Below, piece after piece: positions 48,157 to 49,276 of a stretch of DNA of 64,000 nucleotides. The notes beneath the pieces are model-generated. The model was not told the DNA's origin. It did no database searches and worked only from the letters and a program-made list of their open reading frames with translations. The position numbers and the translations under genes were made by a program. Source of the DNA: Rhodospirillaceae bacterium (lineage in GTDB: Bacteria > Pseudomonadota > Alphaproteobacteria > GCA-2731375); the NCBI GenBank assembly GCA_018660265.1, contig JABJKS010000094.1, forward strand, positions 1 through 64,000. The letters are read 5' to 3'. Numbering within the stretch: the first letter of the stretch is position 1; every line of letters begins with the position of its first letter.

Positions 48157-48375
48157 TTAAATGCGCGTCAAGGCGTCCAATTCAACATCAGTGGGAAAAC
48201 GGTGCGTGGCTTTTTTTGAGTAGGCCAGGTTTCCGTCAACGGTGATTTCGAATGCCCCGCCCCCCGAAGCGGTCAGGCTGACATCGGCGTTGAATTTGTC
48301 CTGCAAGCGGTCCCTCGCACGGAGGGCGTTCGGTTCGTAGTTTCACATCATGCAATATTCGATGTCGATCTTCAT
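48157..48375 (-). CDS. SelW-like (Rdx family) selenoprotein with CxxU motif, in-frame TGA
   Basis: Reading the minus strand from the ATG at 48375 gives 72 residues if the in-frame TGA at 48345-48343 is read as selenocysteine: MKIDIEYCMM-U-NYEPNAL, then ARDRLQDKF, SGGGAFEITVDGNLAYSKK and RFPTDVELDAL before TAA. This is the SelT/SelW/SelH (Rdx) thioredoxin-like fold, whose redox motif is CxxC or CxxU after a first beta strand, followed by NYxP. The TGA sits exactly where Cys or Sec belongs (Cys8, Sec11). GGGGGAG lies seven bases before the ATG. A hairpin 16 bases after the TGA fits a bacterial SECIS. The gene follows the TerB/J-domain gene after 23 bases on the same strand. The alternatives are a pseudogene or a base error (TGC). 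Confidence 0.87.
48312..48345 (-). promoter_or_regulatory. Candidate bacterial SECIS element with the Sec TGA
   Basis: On the minus strand the TGA (48345-48343) is followed by 16 bases and then CCCTC (48326-48322), loop CGTGC and GAGGG (48316-48312). The apical loop starts about 21 bases after the TGA and has G as its second base. Both features fit the bacterial SECIS consensus (loop 16-37 bases from TGA, G among the first two loop bases). The stem is five perfect pairs, short but GC-rich. Confidence 0.7.
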
Positions 48376-48398
48376 AATTTGCTCCCCCAAAACATTGG

Positions 48399-49136
48399 TT
48401 ACGATATGCCCCGTTGCTGGCAGATGCGGTCATAGGCATCATTGATGGTGGCCAGTTTTTCTGTCGCCAGGTCAACGAACTCCTGTGGCAGGCCGCGGGC
48501 GATGGCGCGGTCGGGATGATTTTCCTGGATCAAGGCGCGCCATGTTCGCTTTATTTCTTCTTCGTCCGCATCCGCTTCAATGCCAAAAATCGTGTACGGG
48601 TCGGCCAGATCAGGGCCCATATGATAGGCTTGGATGCGCGAAAAACCTGCTGGATTAAAGCCGAATATCTCCGCCACTTTAGCCAGGAATTCCAGCTCTG
48701 TCGGGTGGACAATCTGGTCTGCCTTGGCGATCTGAAACAGACCGTGCAATAAATCTTCCAGGACCTGGGATGCGGGTTCAAACAGATCCGCGATCTGTCC
48801 TGCATAAGCCTCAAAACCGGCCACATCCTGGCGTGCCAGATTAAAGACGCGGGAGACGCTTTTCATGTCTTCGGGCGAAATCTTGAATACCTGCTTAAAG
48901 GCCTCAACCTCGTCGCGGGTTACCTGGCCATCGGCCTTGGCCATTTTGGCGCCCAGGGCGATGACGCCGATGGTAAAAGCAACCTGCCTGGTGGCATCAC
49001 CAGCCTCGCTGGTGAATTCTCCGGTGATATTGCGAAAGGTGTCCGCTGCCTGCCCGGCGAACCCGCCCAACAGGGCACCCAACGGCCCATCCAATGCGCC
49101 GCCGACGCCGCGAACAATTCTATTCCAAATACTCAT
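48399..49136 (-). CDS. TerB-domain and J-domain co-chaperone (DjlA-like)
   Basis: The 245-residue protein begins with a short glycine-rich, weakly hydrophobic segment (GVGGALDGPLGALLGGFAG). A TerB-like helical domain follows (VAFTIGVIALGAKMAKADGQVTRDEVEAF to about 165, with acidic pairs that may bind metal), and a C-terminal J domain has DPYTIFGIEADADEEEIKRTWR and the HPD motif in ENHPDRAIARG. J domains stimulate DnaK. The start at 49136 (MSIWNRIVRG) has AAGG just upstream; a 25-codon longer frame is not supported. The SelW-like selenoprotein gene follows immediately, so the two are probably co-transcribed. Confidence 0.88.
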   Translation of the reverse strand: MSIWNRIVRGVGGALDGPLGALLGGFAGQAADTFRNITGEFTSEAGDATRQVAFTIGVIALGAKMAKADGQVTRDEVEAFKQVFKISPEDMKSVSRVFNLARQDVAGFEAYAGQIADLFEPASQVLEDLLHGLFQIAKADQIVHPTELEFLAKVAEIFGFNPAGFSRIQAYHMGPDLADPYTIFGIEADADEEEIKRTWRALIQENHPDRAIARGLPQEFVDLATEKLATINDAYDRICQQRGIS

Positions 49137-49276
49137 GCCGCCTTCATCCCTCATGTGCGGTCTTTTACACTTAAGACCCCGGACCGCGCTTTGCAAGTAC
49201 GCCATTGCCAAATTGATGAATTATCGATAAATTGTCTATAAAATATAAATTAAACTGCAATTTAAGGACCTGGAAC

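Follow-up and report, generated by a model that had tools for sequence, protein, structure and literature searches.

A SelW-like (Rdx family) gene with a conserved in-frame UGA and SECIS hairpin, predicted to encode a selenoprotein, in a selenocysteine-decoding alphaproteobacterium

Background

Mammalian selenoprotein W carries a CxxU motif, and in bacteria selenocysteine (Sec) is delivered at UGA by SelB with Sec-tRNA-Sec, which binds a hairpin in the mRNA. In marine metagenomes, SelW-like proteins rank with the commonest selenoproteins (PMC1088965, PMC2398784), and they are also listed in a bacterial survey of 2006, in which few Cys homologues were recorded in Sec-using organisms (PMC1794560). 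The function of the bacterial members has been described as unclear, SelW having been linked to glutathione, and the eukaryotic SECIS element is known to sit in the 3' UTR and not in the coding sequence (PMC1088965).

The locus described here lies in a window of 64 kb, which is the whole stretch of DNA analysed, and had been predicted to contain a SelW-like selenoprotein gene hidden behind an in-frame TGA. Our analysis indicates that it almost certainly encodes a bacterial SelW-like selenoprotein of the Rdx family, with the UGA at codon 11 read as Sec.

Results and discussion

An Rdx family frame interrupted by TGA

The features of the locus are collected in Table 1. The product reads MKIDIEYCMMUNYEPNALRARDRLQDKFNADVSLTASGGGAFEITVDGNLAYSKKATHRFPTDVELDALTRI, the TGA being the sole interruption of the frame and TAA its terminator. 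On inspection, the frame, the ribosome-binding site ahead of it and the motifs CMMU-NYEP, GGGAFEITVDG, YSKK and RFP were all found as the original prediction had reported them. It had also held that gene callers would miss the gene entirely, which is true of ordinary ORF finding, since this ends after ten codons and makes the locus a clean case of a gene that the genetic code conceals; the statement went too far in that a fragment of about 50 codons, starting from a TTG downstream of the TGA, is callable. The SelT/SelW/SelH family itself is covered by NCBI curated models.

Table 1. Features at the SelW-like locus (positions in the window)
Feature	Position	Strand	Description
selW-like (Rdx family) selenoprotein gene	48157..48375	(-)	72 residues, predicted Sec at position 11
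In-frame TGA (UGA)	48343..48345	(-)	codon 11, predicted selenocysteine of CxxU motif
Ribosome-binding site GGGGGAG	48382..48388	(-)	6 nt 5' of ATG, direct sequence reading
SECIS hairpin	48312..48326	(-)	5-bp stem CCCUC/GAGGG, loop CGUGC at 48321-48317
TerB-DnaJ domain protein gene (upstream neighbour)	48399..49211	(-)	Pfam TerB 2.5e-28, DnaJ 3e-8

In the family profile searches Cys was used as a stand-in for Sec at the TGA. Read in this way, the product matched Pfam Rdx (PF10262) over residues 2-67 with an E-value of 5.1e-17 (62.3 bits, cut-off 22.6) and the NCBIfam model TIGR02174 CXXU_selWTH with 52.6 bits (cut-off 34.2); with both models over their cut-offs, the proposed assignment to the SelT/SelW/SelH (Rdx) family is correct. 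The match spans the TGA, and the segment after the TGA also matches Pfam Rdx when taken alone (E = 4.6e-10). No second Rdx gene was found in the genome. The CxxU motif lies near the N-terminus (C-MM-U, residues 8-11) and aligns with the CxxC of 2fa8, and the solved Rdx relatives matched by sequence are Atu0228 (2fa8), selenoprotein W (2npb) and 2ljk. Considering these homologous structures, the product is expected to adopt a thioredoxin-like fold in which the CMMU motif (Cys8, Sec11) is redox-active, and its predicted role is most likely that of a small thiol/selenol oxidoreductase.

As a control for chance, a loose filter for frames broken by a TGA and having a Cys close to it was applied to the 64-kb window and returned 37 frames, the selW-like frame included. 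Pfam scans of the other 36 gave no match across the TGA; the sole matching frame amongst them is a class III aminotransferase from 29631, the match of which ends just before its TGA. The bare pattern of TGA and Cys is thus not rare in the window and the family match is unique, so that the finding rests on the family match.

A covarying hairpin downstream of the UGA

The stem of the SECIS hairpin starts 16 nt 3' of the UGA. In a gapless alignment of 24 sequences, all of the 120 pair cells hold standard pairs, and controls at slid positions pair at only 36-61 %. Two-sided changes are seen in four of the five stem pairs and amount to 12 cells, against a shuffle mean of 1.1, with none of 500 shuffles as high. 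Copies from Bacillales have a different stem at the same distance from the UGA (CCGCG-AGUUU-CGCGG, as against CCCUC-CGUGC-GAGGG in the present gene). The loops of the aligned hairpins are CGUGC or AGUUU, in which the bases GU are invariant and a G is placed in the small apical loop.

Codon usage over the hairpin is constrained as well. For the 18 alphaproteobacterial copies, codon identity at positions with the same residue is 98 % at +6 to +10 after the UGA vs 55 % elsewhere. CGT is the only codon used for the Arg at +8, and AGG the only one at +10 (17 copies having Arg there), whereas the remaining Arg codons of these selW-like genes are mostly CGC or CGG. Codon choice over the hairpin is frozen beyond amino-acid need. 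When the genome was searched with the hairpin (SECIS) model, no further convincing hit was obtained, the next best having an E-value of about 0.1, and the model is therefore unfit for finding selenoproteins in general. No relative was detected when viral contigs were scanned.

Selenocysteine machinery and the reading of codon 11

The genome is 5.5 Mb in size and 97 % complete, in a draft assembly of 121 contigs, and a search for selA, selB, selC and selD found all four. The selB gene, coding for 646 aa, adjoins selA; selC is a tRNA-Sec with the anticodon TCA (UCA in the notation of RNA), and selD is present in two copies. In a survey of 96 genomes, comprising its own and those of relatives, an in-frame TGA occurs at the identical site in 19. 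The selA gene is present in 17 of these 19 genomes vs 7 of the 77 others (Fisher p = 1.6e-11, with shared ancestry ignored), and outside the organism's own family in four of five genomes with the UGA form vs 6 of 76 without it (p = 5.9e-4, shared ancestry again being ignored). One of the two exceptions, G003, is without selA but has selB and tRNA-Sec. The other, G025, is a MAG of 77 % completeness that carries the UGA form and the hairpin (locus L032, G025:C21:54208-54408), but searches of it for selA, selB and tRNA-Sec gave nothing over cut-off; incompleteness or missing contigs, misbinning or loss may be the reason.

The machinery, the conserved TGA, the covarying hairpin and the other TGA-containing genes of this genome (see below) together support the earlier proposal that the organism decodes UGA as selenocysteine, and from them we infer Sec insertion at codon 11 itself. 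In the proposed mechanism, the ribosome would reach the UGA at codon 11, SelA would make Sec-tRNA-Sec from the selenophosphate supplied by SelD, the downstream mRNA hairpin would recruit SelB with this tRNA, and selenocysteine would be inserted at the UGA in place of termination.

Selenocysteine insertion is generally inefficient, and a reading in which the UGA mostly terminates or takes cysteine, little selenoprotein being made (for instance at low selenium), draws on this fact. Such a long conservation of both hairpin and UGA nevertheless implies that read-through with Sec mattered, and the Sec machinery is present; we therefore regard this reading as very improbable.

Conservation of the UGA and the Cys forms

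The selenoprotein reading also agrees with the spread of the TGA form, which is found in 10 of the 11 genomes of the genus, in all four other members of the family that were searched and, down to a protein identity of about 47 %, in other families of the class. Public contigs add TGA copies from Bacillales of the Rossellomorea/Planococcus type and from a gammaproteobacterial MAG. The latter copy (L046:2805-3005) has 58 % protein identity and an identical 15-nt hairpin; this is a hint of transfer between classes, of misbinning or of extreme constraint.

Two relatives (G030 and G051) have an uninterrupted frame with TGC at the TGA site, coding for Cys and giving a CxxC motif. No selA match, no selB over cut-off and no tRNA-Sec were found in these two genomes, where the best tRNA hits are tRNA-Ser. 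The occurrence of Cys forms here agrees with the scarcity of Cys homologues in Sec-using organisms reported in PMC1794560.

Since the assembly behind the window is a draft of many contigs, a sequencing or assembly error might be suspected, the true codon being TGC or TGT and the product an ordinary CxxC Rdx protein. The same TGA in 19 separate genomes, independent relatives among them, nevertheless excludes a misread TGC or TGT at 48345-48343, and the covarying hairpin would be needless for a Cys form; an error was thus rejected, with next to no probability remaining to it. If the gene were a pseudogene in decay and the TGA at codon 11 a genuine stop, the early in-frame stop would likewise be accounted for, yet the protein after the TGA is strongly constrained in all relatives (GGxFEITVDG, SKK, RFP), the position of the stop is identical everywhere and no further stops accumulate within the frame. 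With the frame conserved beyond the TGA and the stop fixed in position, the pseudogene was rejected as extremely improbable.

TGA codons elsewhere in the window and genome

A different genetic code, in which UGA is reassigned to Trp, Gly or Cys, would also fit the fact that several genes read through a TGA. However, of the 33 long stop-to-stop frames that the window contains, 8 end in TGA, the aminotransferase mentioned above loses its Pfam match just ahead of such a codon, read-through TGAs are seen only at redox/Sec sites and the genome has the full Sec machinery. Since TGA is still used as a stop in the aminotransferase and in other long frames, a changed code was rejected and its chance is considered negligible.

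The selenoproteome of the genome was sampled through a few families. In the first selD copy (L069:1501-2427, equivalent to G000:C31:57158-58084) an in-frame TGA occupies the classic Sec site, GGG-U-GCKIAP. The second (G000:C97:58106-59017) is without TGA and lies inside an open frame of 787 aa, and it may belong to the Ndh-SelD fusions reported in PMC2398784. Four genes of peroxiredoxin/thioredoxin-like proteins (L089, L090, L092 and L093, on contigs C91, C1, C48 and C116) have in-frame TGAs at redox sites that are classic for Sec, namely TPGUT (Prx), WUPYC in two cases and WUGC. Some hairpin is predicted downstream of each TGA, and the four are probable further selenoproteins of the same genome. 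Matches in the genome to the formate dehydrogenase and CMD/AhpD families contained no TGA.

Genomic neighbourhood

The end of the upstream TerB-DnaJ gene and the start of the selW-like gene are 23 nt apart on the same strand, and the two are possibly co-transcribed. A hydantoinase/oxoprolinase gene is located on the far side of the TerB-DnaJ gene, and a beta-eliminating lyase gene is convergent to the selW-like gene. In relatives of the genus the TerB-DnaJ gene is likewise the direct neighbour, with the same orientation, and it occurs upstream of or near the selW-like gene in G011, a member of another genus; none was seen beside more distant selW-like copies. Adjacency conserved in the genus and one neighbouring genus only prompts the speculative and unlikely suggestion that the SelW-like selenoprotein is a redox partner of the TerB-DnaJ protein in this alphaproteobacterial genus. 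If true, this partnership would provide a concrete function for bacterial SelW, and the conserved neighbour can be regarded as a small lead in that direction.

Comparison with known systems

Amongst described relatives, mammalian selenoprotein W (2npb) belongs to the same Rdx family and was matched at 2.7e-4, but its SECIS is located in the 3' UTR, whereas that of the present gene lies inside the coding sequence. The Cys-form Rdx proteins (Atu0228 with structure 2fa8, and the copies in G030 and G051) share the family and the GGxFE and FP motifs, but have CxxC where the present gene has CxxU, and no UGA. Curated models place the product similarly: TIGR02174 matches it over the whole length, and so does NF041051 SelTWH_Campy, with 84.4 bits narrowly under its cut-off of 88, the present gene being alphaproteobacterial.

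The original prediction had stated that SelW-like selenoproteins occur in marine bacterial metagenomes, and the literature bears this out (PMC1088965, PMC2398784). The SelW-like genes of the Sargasso Sea and Global Ocean Sampling data share with the present gene the SelW/Rdx family, the CxxU motif, the in-frame UGA and an origin in marine bacteria, as well as a bacterial SECIS right after the UGA, the small apical loop of which contains a G; no substantive difference was noted at the level of these described features. The present gene is a further SelW-like member of a kind known since 2005 or before. Beside its metagenomic counterparts, it is placed in a genome with Sec machinery and known neighbours, and it provides a record of an alphaproteobacterial lineage that decodes Sec and retains SelW as a predicted selenoprotein throughout, with a hairpin under such constraint that its codons are frozen.
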